DNA of 47,806 bases from Rickettsiales bacterium (lineage in GTDB: Bacteria; Pseudomonadota; Alphaproteobacteria; Rs-D84), in assembly GCA_031260805.1 (NCBI GenBank), contig JAISKV010000006.1:1-47806 (forward strand). The letters run 5' to 3'. A program made the position numbers and the translations under genes. Positions within the stretch are counted from its first letter, which is position 1, and each line of letters starts with the position of its first letter. The notes under the pieces are model-generated. The model was not told where the DNA came from and did no database searches. It saw only the letters and a list, made by a program, of their open reading frames with translations. Positions 13,240 to 44,265 of this stretch are shown in pieces.

Positions 13240-13337
13240 AAACGGCAGTATAGGATTTTTTTCAATCCGCCGCAATAAAATAAAGTGCAGAGAGTCATCT
13301 GACACGACCCCGCCCCGCATCGCCGATAGCGTTGTGT

Positions 13338-22806: not shown

Positions 22807-25368
22807 ATGTTGAAAATATTGCAAAAAATTATTGGAAATTCTAATGACAGATTAATCAAGAATTACGACAAACTGGTATCATTGATAAATGATTTGGAAC
22901 CGTGGTATCACGCGATGACGGACGATCAATTGCGCGACGCGACCACAGAATTAAAGCAAAAACTGGCGGCCGGGGCGCGCGAACAGGATATTCTGGCGGA
23001 CGCATTCGCGCTGGTCCGCGAAGGCGGCATCCGCGCGACCGGCATGCGGCACTTTAATGTCCAGTTAATCGGCGGAATGGTGCTGAACGACGGCCAGATT
23101 TGCGAAATGAAGACCGGCGAAGGAAAAACGCTGGTCGCGACGCTGGCGTTGTTTCTGAAAGCCTTGCACGGCCGCGGCGCGCATCTGATAACCGTGAATG
23201 ATTACCTGGCGTCGCGCGACGCGGAAAGCATGGGCGAGTTATACAAATTCCTGGGGCTGACCGTCGGGGTCATTCAGCACGACATGGACGACGACGCGCG
23301 GCGCGCGGCGTACCAGTGCGACATAACATATGTGACGAACAGCGAACTGGGCTTTGATTATCTGCGCGACAATATGAAGTTCACCAAGGCCCAGCAGGTA
23401 TTGCGTCCGTTCTGGTACGCGATTGTTGACGAAGTGGATTCCATTCTGATTGATGAAGCCCGCACGCCGCTTATCATTTCCGGACCTTCCGAAGACACCA
23501 GCGAACTGTATGTCGCGATTGACGCGGCCGTTAAAAAACTGCGCGAATCCGATTACAAGAAAGACGAAAAGGACAAGCATGTAACCCTGACCGACGCCGG
23601 CGTGGACAGCATGACAAAACTGCTTACCGATTCCGGACTGATGACCGGGGAAAACCTGTACGCGCCTGAAAACTCCGCGCTGGTCATGCATATCGGGCAA
23701 TCGCTGCTGGCAAACCACTTGTATCAGAAAAATGTGAATTATGTCGTGCGCGACGGACAGATTTTAATCGTTGACGAATTCACGGGACGCGTCATGACGG
23801 GCCGGCGTTTCGGCAAAGGCCTGCACCAGGCGATAGAGGCCAAGGAAGGCGTCGCCGTGCAGCCTGAAAATCAGACGGTATCTTCAATTTCTTATCAAAA
23901 CTTGTTCCGGATGTATCCAAAACTGGCCGGGATGACCGGCACCGCGATGACCGAAGCGGCCGAGTTCGAGGAAATTTACAATCTGCGCGTCGTATCCGTG
24001 CCGACCAACCGGCCTGTGATGCGCAACGATCACCAAGACGAAATTTACAAAAACAAGTCCGAAAAATATGACGCGATAATCGCGCAGATAAAAACATGCC
24101 TGGACAGAAGTCAACCCGTTCTGGTCGGGACAATAACAATTGAAAAATCCGAAGAATTGGCGGCGGAAGTCAGAAAACGGCTGAACATCCAGCCGGCGGT
24201 ATTGAATGCCAAGCATCACGAATCCGAAGCGAGAATAATCATGCAGGCCGGCGCCCCAGGGACCATTACAATCGCGACCAACATGGCGGGCCGCGGCACA
24301 GACATCAAACTGGGCGGCAATGCCGAAGAATTAATCAAAGAGCAAAAAGCGACAAGCAAAGAGCAGAAAGATGCAATCTATGCGATGGTTGAAAAAAACA
24401 AAAAGTTGGTTTTGGATGCGGGCGGACTGTTTGTTATTGGAACCGAACGGCACGAATCGCGCCGCATTGACAACCAATTGCGCGGACGATCCGGACGCCA
24501 GGGGGATCCCGGCGAATCCAAGTTCTTTCTGGCATTGGACGACGATTTGATGCGGATTTTCGGCGCGGCGCGGCTGGGCGGCATGCTGACGACGATGGGG
24601 TTGAAACCCGGCGAGGCGATAACGCATCCCTGGATTACCAAGGCCCTGGAAAAAGCGCAGAAGCGCGTGGAAGCCCGGTATTTTGAGTCGCGCAAGGAAC
24701 TGTTAAAGTACGACAATGTCATGAACGAGCAGCGCAAGGTTGTTTATTCCCAGCGCGACGAATTGATGTCTTCGGAAAATCTGCAACCGTTCATGCGCGA
24801 GTTAATCGGCGATGTCGTTGAAAATATTTGCGAGTCAAACATTCCGGAAAAATCGCGTTCCGAAGAATGGAATACCGATGGCATTCATGACGCGTTCATC
24901 CGGACATTCGGCATGGACATAACAGATATCCAAAACTGGAAGTCGGACGAAACAATCAACGAAACCAAGGCGTTTGATTCTTTGCTGCAACTGGCAAACT
25001 CGCGCTATGCGGCGCAAGAGCAAAAGTACGGACGCGAACTGATGGCGATGGCCGAGCGCCAGATGACGCTGTCCGCGCTGGACGCTTGCTGGAAACGGCA
25101 TCTGGCCCAGATGGATTACTTGCAGACGGGAATCGGGCTGCGTGGGTACGCCCAGAAAAATCCATTGTATGAATACAAGCGCGAGGCTTTTGATTTATTC
25201 AAGAACATGATGCTGGCATTCAAGACTCAGTCCGTCGTTTATGTTTGCAGAATGGAACTGAATCGCCGCGAGTTGGAAGAAACCAAGGCCGACCAAGAAT
25301 CGTACGGGGAATCGCTGAATGACGAAACGCCTGCAATCGCCGAAGACAAATGGAAAAAAATATTTTAG
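22807..25368 (+). CDS. secA: Preprotein translocase subunit SecA (no C-terminal Zn/SecB-binding tail)
   Basis: MKTGEGKTLVATL, VDEVDSILIDEARTPLIISG, TNMAGRGTDIKLGG, GTERHESRRIDNQLRGRSGRQGDPGES; RBS AAAGGAAT. Confidence 0.96.
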   Translation: MLKILQKIIGNSNDRLIKNYDKLVSLINDLEPWYHAMTDDQLRDATTELKQKLAAGAREQDILADAFALVREGGIRATGMRHFNVQLIGGMVLNDGQICEMKTGEGKTLVATLALFLKALHGRGAHLITVNDYLASRDAESMGELYKFLGLTVGVIQHDMDDDARRAAYQCDITYVTNSELGFDYLRDNMKFTKAQQVLRPFWYAIVDEVDSILIDEARTPLIISGPSEDTSELYVAIDAAVKKLRESDYKKDEKDKHVTLTDAGVDSMTKLLTDSGLMTGENLYAPENSALVMHIGQSLLANHLYQKNVNYVVRDGQILIVDEFTGRVMTGRRFGKGLHQAIEAKEGVAVQPENQTVSSISYQNLFRMYPKLAGMTGTAMTEAAEFEEIYNLRVVSVPTNRPVMRNDHQDEIYKNKSEKYDAIIAQIKTCLDRSQPVLVGTITIEKSEELAAEVRKRLNIQPAVLNAKHHESEARIIMQAGAPGTITIATNMAGRGTDIKLGGNAEELIKEQKATSKEQKDAIYAMVEKNKKLVLDAGGLFVIGTERHESRRIDNQLRGRSGRQGDPGESKFFLALDDDLMRIFGAARLGGMLTTMGLKPGEAITHPWITKALEKAQKRVEARYFESRKELLKYDNVMNEQRKVVYSQRDELMSSENLQPFMRELIGDVVENICESNIPEKSRSEEWNTDGIHDAFIRTFGMDITDIQNWKSDETINETKAFDSLLQLANSRYAAQEQKYGRELMAMAERQMTLSALDACWKRHLAQMDYLQTGIGLRGYAQKNPLYEYKREAFDLFKNMMLAFKTQSVVYVCRMELNRRELEETKADQESYGESLNDETPAIAEDKWKKIF

Positions 25369-25789
25369 TTATTAGTTATTATACCTTGGAAATTGGAATG
25401 GCAGAGAGCATAATCTTGATTAAAAGTGAAGCATTTGCAGATCGCATAATAAAATTATATAAATTTCTATGTTATGAAAAACAAGAATATATAATTTCTA
25501 AACAAATCTTCCGAAGTGGTACCAGTATTGGCGCAAATATTGCAGAATCAATGTATGCGGAAAGCAAAAAGGACTTTATATCAAAACTCGCAATTGCACA
25601 AAAGGAAACCGCGGAAACATTATACTGGTTGCGCAGACTTCAAGCAGGGCAATTTATAAATACATCGCAGTATGAGAATATTTATGCAGATTGCACGGAA
25701 CTTATAAAAATAATAACTTCCATAATAACATCAACAAAATTAAAATATGTGCCCAAGAGTATAATAACTAATAACTAATAATTAATAAC
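25365..25789. mobile_element. Heptad-armed inverted-repeat element (TTAGTTA family) carrying a four-helix-bundle ORF
   Basis: Left TTAGTTA TTAGTTA TTATACC (25365-25385); right GTATAATAACTAATAACTAATAATTAATAAC (25759-25789); 20-bp perfect terminal inverted repeat. Confidence 0.75.
25398..25778 (+). CDS. Four helix bundle protein (TIGR02436 / 23S rRNA IVS ORF / Avd-like)
   Basis: YEKQEYIISKQIFRSGTSIGANIAESMYAESKKDFISKLAIAQKETAETLYWLRRL is the family signature. Confidence 0.88.
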   Translation: MAESIILIKSEAFADRIIKLYKFLCYEKQEYIISKQIFRSGTSIGANIAESMYAESKKDFISKLAIAQKETAETLYWLRRLQAGQFINTSQYENIYADCTELIKIITSIITSTKLKYVPKSIITNN

Positions 25790-29157: not shown

Positions 29158-29254
29158 TATAGTTATTAATTTTTAATTATTAGTTATTATACCATTGTGC
29201 GCGCTATAACAATTCCGCCACCACAAACAAAATAACTAATAACTAATAACTAAT
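29158..29254. mobile_element. Short heptad-armed inverted-repeat element (no ORF)
   Basis: TTAGTTATTATACCATTGTGCGCGC...CCGCCACCACAAACAAAATAACTAATAACTAATAACTAAT. Confidence 0.75.
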
Positions 29255-30088
29255 ATGAAACACATACCGGTGCTCTTGAATGCTGTTTTGGAAATGCTGG
29301 GGGATATTCGCGGCAAGACGATTATTGACGCGACATTCGGGGCCGGCGGATACAGCCGCGCCTTTCTGGAACGCGGCGCGGGTGTTATTGCGTTTGACCG
29401 CGATACGACTGTCAAAAAATTCGCGGATGAAATTCATGATAAGAATTTTCAATTTTTTAACAAACCATTTTCCGAAATCCGGACACTGAACCTTGAAAAC
29501 TGCCATGTTGTCTTTGACTTTGGCGTATCGTCAATGCAGATTGACACGCCGGACCGCGGGTTTTCTTGGCGGTTTGACGCGCCGCTGGACATGCGCATGG
29601 GCGGCGGAATCACGGCCGGACAATTGATAGAAGATTCAACGGTTGACGAATTGGCGCGGATTCTGCGCGATTACGGCGATGTGAAAAAGTCAAGAATGTT
29701 TGCGACAATCATTAAAAACGCAAATCCGAAAACGACTTTCCAATTGCGGGATTTGATAAATAATCCCAAGGATATCGCCCCGATTTTTCAGGCCCTGCGC
29801 ATCGCGGTAAACGACGAACTGGGCGAAATACGGACGGCATTGAACGCGGTGCCGGAACTGCTGGGGGCCGGCGGAATTTGCGCCGCGGTCAGTTTTCATT
29901 CATTGGAAGACCGGATTGTAAAATCATATTTCCGCGAATTAACGGCGCCTGTCGGCGACCCGCGAATACCGGTCGCGGCGATCCGGCAGTGGGAACTGTT
30001 AAAGACGGTCCGGCCGGACGCGGACGAACTGGACGCCAATCCGCGGGCGCGCAGCGCGCACTTGCGCGGGATAAAAAAAGTGTTATAA
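29255..30088 (+). CDS. rsmH: 16S rRNA (cytosine1402-N4)-methyltransferase RsmH (MraW)
   Basis: HIPVLLNAVLEML, DATFGAGGYSRAFLE, FDFGVSSMQIDTPDRGFSW, SFHSLEDRIVKSYFRE. Confidence 0.95.
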   Translation: MKHIPVLLNAVLEMLGDIRGKTIIDATFGAGGYSRAFLERGAGVIAFDRDTTVKKFADEIHDKNFQFFNKPFSEIRTLNLENCHVVFDFGVSSMQIDTPDRGFSWRFDAPLDMRMGGGITAGQLIEDSTVDELARILRDYGDVKKSRMFATIIKNANPKTTFQLRDLINNPKDIAPIFQALRIAVNDELGEIRTALNAVPELLGAGGICAAVSFHSLEDRIVKSYFRELTAPVGDPRIPVAAIRQWELLKTVRPDADELDANPRARSAHLRGIKKVL

Positions 30089-30101: not shown

Positions 30102-30210
30102 CGTCATTCCGGCATTGAATCTGTAAAAACATTTGATAATTGTTTTTCCAAAGAACCGGAATCCATTGAACCATAGATTCCGGGTCGCGCTGCGCTTGCC
30201 CGGAATGACG
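30102..30210. repeat. GTCATTCC-type palindromic intergenic element
   Basis: CGTCATTCCGG ... CCGGAATCCATTGAACC...TTGCCCGGAATGACG. Confidence 0.75.
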
Positions 30211-30215
30211 ACAAA

Positions 30216-31388
30216 ATGAAAATATTTTTTATCTTTTATCTTTTAATTTTTATCTTGCCGGCGGCGCATGCGTTTTCAACGCCGGCAAAATCGGCGTACC
30301 TGTACGACTATCATTCCGGCGCGGTGCTGTTTGACAAGGATGCGGACGAACTGATGCCGCCTTCGTCCATGCTGAAACTGATGACGATCGCGCTGGGAAT
30401 GCAGGCGTTGCAGGACGGCGAATTGAAATTGGCCGACAAACTGCCGGTGTCAAAAAATGCGGACTATCAAAACCCGGTGTGGCACAGCGCCAGCAAGATT
30501 TGCCTTTCCGAAGGCCAGCGCGTTTCAGTTTCAGATTTATTGGACGGAATGATAGTATTAAGCGGCGGCGACGCCTCGGTTGTTCTGGCGGAAAAACTGG
30601 CGGGCAGCGAATCCGCGTTCACTGATAAAATGACCGCATTCGCGCGCGGGATAGGCATGGAGAATTCCACCTTTGGAAACGCGACCGGCCTGCCGCATCC
30701 GGATAATTTGATGACCAGCCGCGAATTGGGAATTCTGGCAAAATACATCATTGACAAGTTTCCGGAATATTATCCGCGGTTTGCCCAGCGGCGGTTTGAG
30801 TTCGGCGATTTCAAGTCCGACTGGTGCCGTCAATGGGGCGCGTCGCACACGCTGAATTACAATAAACTGCTGTTCATCATGGGCGGCGCGGACGGGCTTA
30901 AAACCGGGCACACCAGCAGCGGCGGATACGGCATGGTCGCGTCGGCGCGCCGCGGCGGGCGACGGCTGATCGGCGTAATCAACGGATTGCGCGCGGCGGA
31001 TCACAACGCGCTGGCCGGACAGATGAAGAAATTGCTGGAATTCGGATTTTCAGATTTCCAAAATAAATCGTTTATAAAATCCGATGCGGTTATTGCGGAA
31101 ATCCCGGTCTGGTACGGGCGCCGTAATTTTGTCGCGGCCGGGGTCGCAAATGATTTCGTTTTAACTTTCCAAAAAAATCAAACCGGCGACGGGATAAAAA
31201 TAATCGCCCGGTATGAGGAGCCTTTGCGCGCGCCGGTATCCGCTGGTCAGAAACTGGGCGCGGTTATCGCGATGCGCGACGGGCGCGAAATCGCGCGCGC
31301 TGATCTGGTCGCGAAATCCAGGGTCGGACGAGCATGGTTTTTCGGGCGCATAATGCAAAACATCAGGGTGATATTCAATGGCCGTTAA
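30216..31388 (+). CDS. dacA: D-alanyl-D-alanine carboxypeptidase (PBP5/6 family)
   Basis: Signal peptide; SSMLKLMT (SxxK), LSGGDAS at the SxN position, GLKTGHT (KTG). Confidence 0.9.
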   Translation: MKIFFIFYLLIFILPAAHAFSTPAKSAYLYDYHSGAVLFDKDADELMPPSSMLKLMTIALGMQALQDGELKLADKLPVSKNADYQNPVWHSASKICLSEGQRVSVSDLLDGMIVLSGGDASVVLAEKLAGSESAFTDKMTAFARGIGMENSTFGNATGLPHPDNLMTSRELGILAKYIIDKFPEYYPRFAQRRFEFGDFKSDWCRQWGASHTLNYNKLLFIMGGADGLKTGHTSSGGYGMVASARRGGRRLIGVINGLRAADHNALAGQMKKLLEFGFSDFQNKSFIKSDAVIAEIPVWYGRRNFVAAGVANDFVLTFQKNQTGDGIKIIARYEEPLRAPVSAGQKLGAVIAMRDGREIARADLVAKSRVGRAWFFGRIMQNIRVIFNGR

Positions 31389-32319: not shown

Positions 32320-33050
32320 ACACTCACGCGCATTTTTACGACAGCAATCCGGACGAAGTCATCGCGAACGCGGCCGCGGCCAATGTCGGAATTATTGTCG
32401 CGGCATCCGCGCATCCGGATGATTTGGAAAAAAATACCGCGCTGTGCGAAAAGTATGAAAATATATTCTGCACAATCGGGATTCATCCGGAATATGCGAA
32501 TCAGCGTTCAGATTTCAGATTTCAGATTTCAGATAAAGTAATTGGGATTGGCGAAATCGGGTTGGATTATCACTATGAAAACAACCCGCCGCGCGATGCG
32601 CAGATTGAATTGTTTTTGCGGCAACTGGAAATCGCACAAAACGCCGGACTGCCCGTGGCGGTCCATACCCGCGACGCAGAACAGGATACGATAAACATCC
32701 TGGGCGACCATTCCGGACATGGAGTCCTGCACTGCTTTACAGGGACATGGAACCTGGCGAAAACTATGCTGGACCGCGGCTGGTTTGTTTCCGCCAGCGG
32801 GATAATCTCGTTCAAGAATTCCGACGATTTGCGCGACACTTTCGCGCGGATTCCAACGGACAGAATCGTTATTGAAACCGATTCCCCGTTCTGCGCGCCG
32901 GTTCCGTACCGCGGCAAGCAGTGCCAGCCGTTCATGGCTGCGGAAGTTGCGAAATGCATGGCGCAGATAAAAAATATCCCGCTGCCGGAAATGGAAATTA
33001 TTTTGGAAGAAAACACTAAACGGCTGTACCCGAAACTATGCAGAAATTGA
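32310..33050 (+). CDS. tatD: TatD family metal-dependent hydrolase
   Basis: MFIDTHAHFYD, IGEIGLDYHYENNPPRDAQIELFLRQL, HCFTGTW, ETDSPFCAPVPYRGKQCQP. Confidence 0.93.
   Translation: MFIDTHAHFYDSNPDEVIANAAAANVGIIVAASAHPDDLEKNTALCEKYENIFCTIGIHPEYANQRSDFRFQISDKVIGIGEIGLDYHYENNPPRDAQIELFLRQLEIAQNAGLPVAVHTRDAEQDTINILGDHSGHGVLHCFTGTWNLAKTMLDRGWFVSASGIISFKNSDDLRDTFARIPTDRIVIETDSPFCAPVPYRGKQCQPFMAAEVAKCMAQIKNIPLPEMEIILEENTKRLYPKLCRN
32507..32534 (+). repeat. Heptanucleotide tandem repeat TTCAGAT x4 inside tatD
   Basis: Four perfect consecutive TTCAGAT units, encoding SDFRFQISD. Confidence 0.95.
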
Positions 33051-35517: not shown

Positions 35518-36546
35518 ATGAAAATTTATTCTTTTTTCTTTATTCTTTTTTCTTTTACTTGCGCCTTTGGCGCCAGCATCAATATTGACGGCGTATCGGT
35601 GCCGCTGTCCACTACCAAGCCCAGTACACCCGCGCTGAATGTGGTATCCGGCGGCACGACATATTACGCTGCGCTGTCAACAACATGCCCATACTTTGAC
35701 ACGCCAAAGGCGCGCGTAGTATCCGGCGGAACAACATACACTATCGCAAATGCCGGGACATATGCATTGTACCAAGAGATATCCGCATTTAATTCTTGCC
35801 AAACCATCACCCTGCCCCGCGGATGCTATCGCGTGGAAGTCCGCGGCGGTCGCGGCGGTGCCGGCGGCAGCGCGTCAAACGGATCCGATGCGGCCGCGGC
35901 AACATATGATTTCAATCTGGCTAATTCCGCAACCGCATACGCATTCCGCGGCGGCGATGGAAATGGCGGCGGCGCATGCGGAACCGGCGGAAACAGCGCG
36001 GGCAGCGGCGGCGGCGCATCAGGCGTGGATTCAATGTTCATGTTGTCTGGCGACGGGATTTACAAATCAACCGGCGGCGGCGGCGGTCAAGGCGCATCCG
36101 CCCGCGATAATGGCGGGACAGCCCACAATTGCGGCGGCGGCGGTGGTGGTGGCGGAGGCAACGGAATGGGTTCGCGCAGAAATTATGAAATCAACAATAA
36201 CTTTATGATGTGTGGGGCCGGCGGCGGCGGTTCGCCGAACGGGGCTGGAGCCGGCGAGAGTGTCAGCGGATCTTATGGCGGCGGCGCATCATCCGCCGGC
36301 ACAGCAGGCGGCGGCGGCGGCGGCGGAAATGCGTGGCGAATTACCGATAAAACTTCCGGCGGCAGCGGTGGGGCGACCGCATCGTGGTCTTGCAATGGGC
36401 AGACATTGTATTCTTATGGCGGCGGTGGCGGAGGGGCGATTCAGAACAAAGCCACCAGCGCAGTTAACAAGGACGGATGCAACGGCGGAAGCGGCAGCAC
36501 AGGATCATCATCTACCAGTCATGTCAGAATTTATCGCGTGCAATGA
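35518..36546 (+). CDS. Exported glycine-rich protein (Gly_rich/ALK-like glycine-rich region)
   Basis: Signal peptide MKIYSFFFILFSFTCAFG; YRVEVRGGRGGAGGSASNG and long GGGGGG runs. Confidence 0.75.
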   Translation: MKIYSFFFILFSFTCAFGASINIDGVSVPLSTTKPSTPALNVVSGGTTYYAALSTTCPYFDTPKARVVSGGTTYTIANAGTYALYQEISAFNSCQTITLPRGCYRVEVRGGRGGAGGSASNGSDAAAATYDFNLANSATAYAFRGGDGNGGGACGTGGNSAGSGGGASGVDSMFMLSGDGIYKSTGGGGGQGASARDNGGTAHNCGGGGGGGGGNGMGSRRNYEINNNFMMCGAGGGGSPNGAGAGESVSGSYGGGASSAGTAGGGGGGGNAWRITDKTSGGSGGATASWSCNGQTLYSYGGGGGGAIQNKATSAVNKDGCNGGSGSTGSSSTSHVRIYRVQ

Positions 36547-42185: not shown

Positions 42186-42288
42186 AGTTATTAATTATAA
42201 GTTATTAGTTATTATACACCGATTTTGGCGGCATAATTATTATAACGCGCGCAATGGTATAATAACTAATAATTAATAACGAATAATT
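42186..42288. mobile_element. Short heptad-armed inverted-repeat element between groS and groL
   Basis: AGTTATTAATTATAAGTTATTAGTTATTATACACC...CAATGGTATAATAACTAATAATTAATAAC. Confidence 0.72.
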
Positions 42289-42963: not shown

Positions 42964-43068
42964 ATTATTAGTTATTAATTATTAGTTATTAGTTATTATA
43001 CCATTGTGCATGCCGCAATAATTCCGCCACCACAAACAAAAGTATAATAACTAATAACTAATAACTAA
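42964..43068. mobile_element. Short heptad-armed inverted-repeat element
   Basis: TTAGTTATTAGTTATTATACCATTGTGCATGC...CCGCCACCACAAACAAAAGTATAATAACTAATAACTAATAACTAA. Confidence 0.78.
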
Positions 43069-43659: not shown

Positions 43660-44265
43660 CTATTTGTTAAATTTCAGCATGCCGTCTTCTGTCGCCGCGT
43701 TCCATCCCAGCGCGCCCAGCGCGTTGATAAGGCTGCGCCGCTTGGCCGCATTGTATAAAATCTGCACGCGCCCGCCGCCGATTGATTTCACCGACATGTT
43801 TAATCCGTCAATTTCATCCAATCCCGCATTGATATTTTTCCAATCCCGCAGACCGTTCGTCAGATAAATAACAGCCGCCGCATTGTCGCCGACATCGTAC
43901 GCCAGAGAATTGGCAATTCCATTCGCCGCGAACAGTTTTTTCACCGCGGATTCGTCAAAATTTATTTTTATAGTGGCGGCATAGTTCGTCGCGGAAATTT
44001 TTTCATCTTCAATCGCGGTGTTCGCGATCAGGTTCTCTATCTCGCCGCCGGATAATTTGTCGGCCAGCGCCGCAACCGCGGCATGATCGGCATAGCGGTC
44101 GCCGACCTGGATAAAGATGTCGCGGCGCGCAGACGACAGCGCGTTTGTCTTGGCCGCGGCCGCCGAAGCAGCAGACCGTTCAATCGTCGCGGTGCCGGAC
44201 AAATCCGCGGCGAACGCCCCGCCGAGACAAAAGATAAAAGATAAAAGATAAATAAATTTTCTCAT
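43660..44265 (-). CDS. Exported hypothetical protein
   Basis: Signal peptide MRKFIYLLSFIFCLGGAFA; in series with lemA and an OM protein gene. Confidence 0.65.
   Translation of the reverse strand: MRKFIYLLSFIFCLGGAFAADLSGTATIERSAASAAAAKTNALSSARRDIFIQVGDRYADHAAVAALADKLSGGEIENLIANTAIEDEKISATNYAATIKINFDESAVKKLFAANGIANSLAYDVGDNAAAVIYLTNGLRDWKNINAGLDEIDGLNMSVKSIGGGRVQILYNAAKRRSLINALGALGWNAATEDGMLKFNK
44230..44250 (-). repeat. Heptanucleotide tandem repeat AAAGATA x3 in the signal-peptide coding region
   Basis: Three perfect AAAGATA units (TATCTTT on coding strand). Confidence 0.9.

Follow-up and report, generated by a model that had tools for sequence, protein, structure and literature searches.

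Heptanucleotide arrays in the signal-peptide cores of a Rickettsiales bacterium suggest that repeat DNA is recycled into protein export signals

Dispersed palindromic DNA lying in frame inside protein genes is familiar from the Rickettsia palindromic elements. Bacterial heptanucleotide repeats have been described as mostly intergenic, patchy over lineages, built from few units and dispersed, the known examples being TAACTGA in Beggiatoaceae, GGGAATC in Xanthomonas and GGGGA(C/T)T in Nostoc (PMC4679880, PMC4692102). Among the long simple repeats of many bacteria, heptads are the most common class, and polymerase slippage has been proposed as their origin (Mrazek 2007, as cited in PMC4679880); Lin and Kussell, as cited in PMC4692102, found simple repeats enriched near N-termini and linked them to frameshifting phase variation. 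The neuO gene of the Escherichia coli K1 phage CUS-3 carries AAGACTC repeats of 3-53 units, most often 20 (PMC13001214). The intervening-sequence (IVS) elements of 23S rRNA have been proposed to be mobile or selfish (PMC4990558). The present genome brings such heptads together with signal peptides (SPs) and with genes of the IVS-type family PF05635. No paper found in our literature search joins heptanucleotides to either of these; most subscription journals lay outside its coverage, and the novelty of both links is provisional.

The first-pass annotation of the window (the whole 47,806-nucleotide stretch analysed) had reported T-rich 7-nt arrays in the signal peptides of dacA and of the genes at 35518 and 44265, and TRF finds arrays at all three sites, as follows:

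30216..31388, plus strand: dacA, D-Ala-D-Ala carboxypeptidase (Peptidase_S11, Pfam PF00768, E=9.8e-52; PBP5_C, PF07943, E=2.1e-16)
30223..30256, plus strand: TATCTTT heptad array, the hydrophobic core of the dacA SP (MKIFFIFYLLIFILPAAHA; TRF period 7)
35518..36546, plus strand: exported glycine-rich gene with SP MKIYSFFFILFSFTCA (ORF, SP rule)
35525..35556, plus strand: TTTATTCTTTTTTC array of period 7/14 in the SP of the 35518 gene (TRF)
43660..44265, minus strand: exported gene with SP MRKFIYLLSFIFCLGGAFA (ORF, SP rule)
44225..44252, minus strand: TATCTTT x 3-4 array in the SP of the 43660..44265 gene (TRF)

From its ATG at 30216 the dacA sequence is ATGAAAATATTTTTTATCTTTTATCTTTTAATTTTTATCTTGCCG, and its array has 12 lag-7 matches in one exact run; the exact run at 44225..44252 has 17. 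A Pfam search with the glycine-rich gene gave no match, and the orthologue of the minus-strand gene in the relative G035 has a non-heptad SP. A palindromic element (CGTCATTCCGG ... CCGGAATGACG) occupies window positions 30102-30213 and stops three bases short of the dacA start codon; at C2:2446-2701 inverted heptad arms enclose a palindrome of this kind. A contig search of genomes with dacA returned distant relatives only.

Are other signal peptides of this genome built in the same way? Candidates were taken with our own gene caller and a simple SP rule, which gave 101 genes, including one false call (EF-G). Over 508 kb the lag-7 nucleotide identity of the SP cores is 0.406 versus 0.300 after codon-order shuffling (z=16-18); lag 14 gives z=10, and all remaining lags give less than 4. 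The same codon-shuffle test at lag 7 finds no excess in internal membrane segments (z=0.1), in the N-termini of non-SP genes (z=0.3) or in codons 51-67 of the SP genes themselves (z=0.4), and neither residue composition nor hydrophobicity explains the SP excess. The overall count of 25 heptad SPs in 100 is inflated by the part of the sample that was picked for TATCTTT matches; in blindly picked stretches 7 of 42 SPs are heptad (z=6.6 versus the codon shuffle). Statistically, about 15-25% of signal peptides have a hydrophobic core made of a heptad array and other hydrophobic segments have none, and the period-7 enrichment in further signal peptides on which the first-pass annotation had staked its proposal is present.

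The SP arrays have about 2.5-5 units each and are often imperfect. By Pfam, their hosts are TolB, OmpA/Pal-like, BamB-like, two DacA, SLT, M48/TPR and CagX/VirB9 proteins, together with DUF2147, DUF2155, SNase and (a weak match) SurA-like proteins. A second dacA-like gene, at L046:9890-10999 (C12:75890-76999), has (TTTTCAC)n as its SP, and two more arrays (AAAAGTG and AATCACG) stand C-terminally, where the PBP5_C match is absent.

Heptads occur all over the genome, in signal peptides and beyond, and we surveyed them in 508 kb of its 729 kb. In the window, exact period-7 runs with 8 or more matches number 15 where 1.0 is expected, and the 508 kb has 66 runs of at least 11 matches where block-wise shuffles give 0.4; among periods 2 to 22, compared over the same 508 kb, only 7, 14 and 21 show a large excess. 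The 184 heptad arrays counted belong to a restricted number of unit families, the largest being AACTAAT (23), AAAAGAT (19), AAGAATT (19) and AAACCTT (15). About 145 of the 184 lie wholly or mostly outside gene calls, and the share of bases within heptads is 8.5% in SPs, 1.7% between genes and 0.17% in other coding sequence, the excess in SPs remaining at matched A+T. The picture first drawn from the window, of real arrays in signal peptides, holds in that part, but the majority of heptad arrays lie between genes, and there are many more heptad SPs, in units other than those first seen. One array inside a gene of the window is the following:

32507..32534, plus strand: TTCAGAT x 4 array in a tatD-family gene, coding SDFRFQISD (TRF; TatD_DNase E=1.9e-72)

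This perfect array directly precedes the conserved GIGEIGLDY motif, and the domain is apparently intact. Heptad-bearing repeats probably break the assembly, since identical heptad arrays stand at equal distance from two contig ends (C9:29-61 and C12:29-61). At window positions 13295, 36685 and 46982, antisense or spurious ORFs contain repeated nonsense peptides (FAGEGVDAAGGRGSG and alike), and these point to a dispersed GC-rich repeat family.

The coding property of such repeats is exact. Any 7-nt unit gives a single cyclic heptapeptide common to all three frames (TATCTTT gives YLLSFIF), and because 7 and 3 share no factor, a stop-free array of at least 3 units is frame-neutral coding. When strand-specific cyclic heptads are enumerated, 1612 of 2344 are open, and among those with at least 4 T, 109 of 166 are open, uncharged and hydrophobic by our threshold. 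The frame neutrality noticed at first reading is borne out in use: the TATCTTT word TTTATCTTTTATCTTTT is read as SP core in each of the three frames, by 6, 3 and 1 genes. The 30-nt version in the dacA array (TTTTATCTTTTATCTTTTAATTTTTATCTT), with its imperfect third unit, recurs identically at C9:24872, within the SP of the unrelated gene at C9:24858, and at the intergenic site C12:156372, and has many near copies too. At C11:43549-/43610+ each arm of one inverted heptad pair is the SP of one of two divergent genes; SP arrays have a nearby inverted arm at one locus only.

The enrichment recurs with other units in another, related genus (g3, represented by 480 kb of G002), where 11 of 81 SPs are heptad (z=7.5, controls clean) and the units are ATTTGCT, CTTTTGC and CTTTATT; further start-anchored heptad SP cases occur genome-wide in G002. 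Heptad-poor relatives such as G035 have no heptad SPs and an SP lag-7 z of 0.3. Signal-peptide cores are rewritten in their DNA, and the mature proteins behind them stay conserved, because orthologous SPs are written in different heptads or in none: that of dacA uses TATCTTT in the present genome, TTTGCTG in G002 and TTTTTTA in G012, a different heptad in each of three genera, and has no heptad in two further genera (G035 and G015), and DUF2147, SurA-like and other orthologues show the same kind of rewriting. To judge from the genomes searched, the units are lineage-specific, since the start-anchored TATCTTT pattern is absent from other genomes of the family and the start-anchored TTTTCAC pattern from 141 other genomes of the class. 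Start-anchored CTGCCTA gave 3 candidate matches in 11 genomes of another family, and twenty stretches of other alphaproteobacteria (several of them short or masked) have almost no heptads.

Heptads also surround the PF05635 genes and form hairpins. The window contains the following examples:

25365..25381, plus strand: left heptad arm (TTAGTTA) of the PF05635 element (TRF)
25392..25778, plus strand: PF05635 gene, coding a four-helix-bundle protein of the 23S rRNA intervening-sequence type (Pfam E=2.7e-26)
25762..25789, plus strand: right arm of the PF05635 element, an inverted heptad (TAATAAC; TRF)
29166..29255, no strand: ORF-less hairpin with heptad arms and a 41-bp loop (inverted-pair analysis)
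42188..42286, no strand: ORF-less hairpin with heptad arms and a 45-bp loop (inverted-pair analysis)
42965..43068, no strand: ORF-less hairpin with (TTATTAG)n / (TAATAAC)n arms and a 46-bp loop (inverted-pair analysis)

The genome has five PF05635 copies, and the window copy is flanked by secA and dnaE-like coding regions, outside 23S rRNA. The hairpin at 42965..43068 has a DNA fold of -19.1 kcal/mol (z=-6.3), and its 46-bp loop is common to copies on C15, C14, C9 and C4; the design of the AACTAAT family is an arm, a conserved loop of ~46 bp and an inverted arm. Neighbouring arrays that share units and lie no more than 250 bp apart form 25 inverted pairs and no direct one. The arms of the window PF05635 element and the ORF-less hairpins have common inner ends (TTATTATACC), and the right arm is AGTATAATAAC in ORF-less copies and in the PF05635 gene copy alike.

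A heptad array lies within ~120 bp of 22 of the 29 PF05635 loci in the family (control zones 2.3%) and of 20 of 25 such loci elsewhere in Pseudomonadota (control zones 0.7%), counted on both sides and not as upstream or downstream, the loci not being strand-oriented. Arms are inverted-complementary at 13 of the 29 family loci and 8 of the 25 others, and periods other than 7 are almost absent around PF05635 loci. Long heptad arrays do change in unit number, since the arms of orthologous PF05635 elements differ by whole 7-nt units between four related species of another family (L215, L218, L222 and L229), with about 6.7, 4.7, 6 and 2.9 units on the left and 12.7, 9.4, 8.7 and 4.4 on the right. 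Across 16 genomes, from samples of unequal and in some cases small size and uncorrected for phylogeny, heptad load correlates with PF05635 copy number (rho=0.64, p=0.008; other periods, rho=0.17); the link to PF05635 as a source is not strict, because G008 has many heptads and one PF05635 copy.

We propose the following explanation and put its probability, taken whole, at about 65%. The genome carries heptanucleotide arrays as a dispersed pool drawn from a restricted range of units; they stand mostly between genes, many of them as hairpin pairs, and they flank PF05635 genes. Most T-rich units, in arrays of three or more without stops, read as an uncharged, hydrophobic peptide in every frame. 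Arrays would repeatedly have been captured into the 5' ends of exported genes, or have regrown within them, and would persist in signal peptides because the Sec/SRP export machinery accepts almost any hydrophobic core; elsewhere in genes they would be purged. ON/OFF switching would not be their main role. Capture or retention as SP cores is a well supported reading of these sequences, and the idea that such arrays are a plausible source of signal peptides, raised from the window alone, fits the SP-specific enrichment, its replication with other units in G002 and the rewritten orthologous SPs. We are less sure of the step by which small hairpin elements related to IVS/PF05635 may have spread the pool and be the source of the heptads. 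The stronger version, in which small mobile elements (IVS-type genes and ORF-less hairpins) spread heptads and a T-rich arm becomes a working SP wherever it lands before a gene, is in our view less likely than not; if true, it would make such elements a standing generator of export signals.

Could the arrays have grown where they stand, by local slippage in T-rich SP DNA and without any dispersed element? Slippage is the origin proposed for the heptads that outnumber other long simple repeats in many bacteria (Mrazek 2007, as cited in PMC4679880), and the perfect arrays, which reach about 5 units, look recent. Yet T-rich internal membrane segments show no heptad growth, and identical imperfect 30-nt words at unrelated loci, the restricted set of units in each genome and the bracketing of PF05635 genes by heptads all argue for dispersal, so that we consider slippage by itself unlikely. 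The arrays might instead be contingency loci, as the first-pass annotation had suggested, in which slippage by one 7-nt unit changes the reading frame and so turns the exported protein ON or OFF, in the manner of neuO. They do lie in SP codons, at the 5' end of the coding region, where gain or loss of one unit necessarily changes the frame; the long heptad arms of PF05635 elements in another family differ in unit number between congeneric species; and neuO is a proven case of heptanucleotide switching within 5' coding sequence (PMC13001214). Against this, the SP arrays are short beside those of neuO (about 2.5-5 units, compared with 3-53 and most often 20) and often imperfect, their hosts include housekeeping envelope genes (TolB, OmpA/Pal-like, BamB-like, SurA-like and DacA), and the same excess extends over many unrelated exported genes. 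Phase variation of the exported proteins is possible in principle but unsupported, and we rate it as quite improbable.

A regulatory role, in which the arrays are RNA or DNA motifs by the start codon that fall in SP codons incidentally, is suggested by the TAACTGA arrays of Beggiatoaceae, for which such a role has been proposed and which stand immediately before start codons (PMC4679880), and by the closeness with which the present arrays follow the start codon. The units differ between genes and genera, having mainly T-richness in common, and non-SP genes lack arrays at the same place, which leaves this reading very little weight. To an artefact of hydrophobic T-rich codons, gene duplication or the gene caller we give next to no credence: T-rich codons are common in SP cores and one SP call was false, but many hosts belong to known exported families. 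The codon-composition form of it is excluded by the codon-shuffle control and the internal membrane segments, and likeness of the SPs through gene duplication was rejected, the mature proteins showing only four weak pairwise similarities.

Capture and retention of dispersed heptads, our preferred reading, matters in that the fast origin and turnover of signal peptides are poorly understood, and the DNA record here would hold one route, from a repeat whose period is coprime with the codon to a hydrophobic core in any frame. The association with PF05635 could explain why heptanucleotide repeats are so patchy among the several groups of bacteria that have them, and it would give a possible biology to a protein family that has been met chiefly in 23S rRNA.

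Compared with the Rickettsia palindromic elements, which are longer and lie in varied protein regions, the DNA in signal peptides here is a heptad word of ~30 nt. The arrays resemble the bacterial heptanucleotide repeats already described in being period-7 direct repeats of few units, dispersed, mostly intergenic and patchy, and differ from them in the large variety of units within one genome, the frequent inverted pairs and the T-rich SP cores. With neuO they share heptanucleotides in the 5' coding region and a read-through that depends on unit number (PMC13001214); neuO is one accessory gene with proven switching and 3-53 units, whereas here many genes, some of them housekeeping, carry ~2.5-5. 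The PF05635 elements are like the 23S rRNA IVS (S23/PF05635) in being short stem-loops whose terminal inverted repeats enclose an ORF of this protein family (PMC4990558), and unlike it they occur as dispersed copies, with the window copy between protein genes, with heptad arms specific to the element and with ORF-less hairpin relatives.
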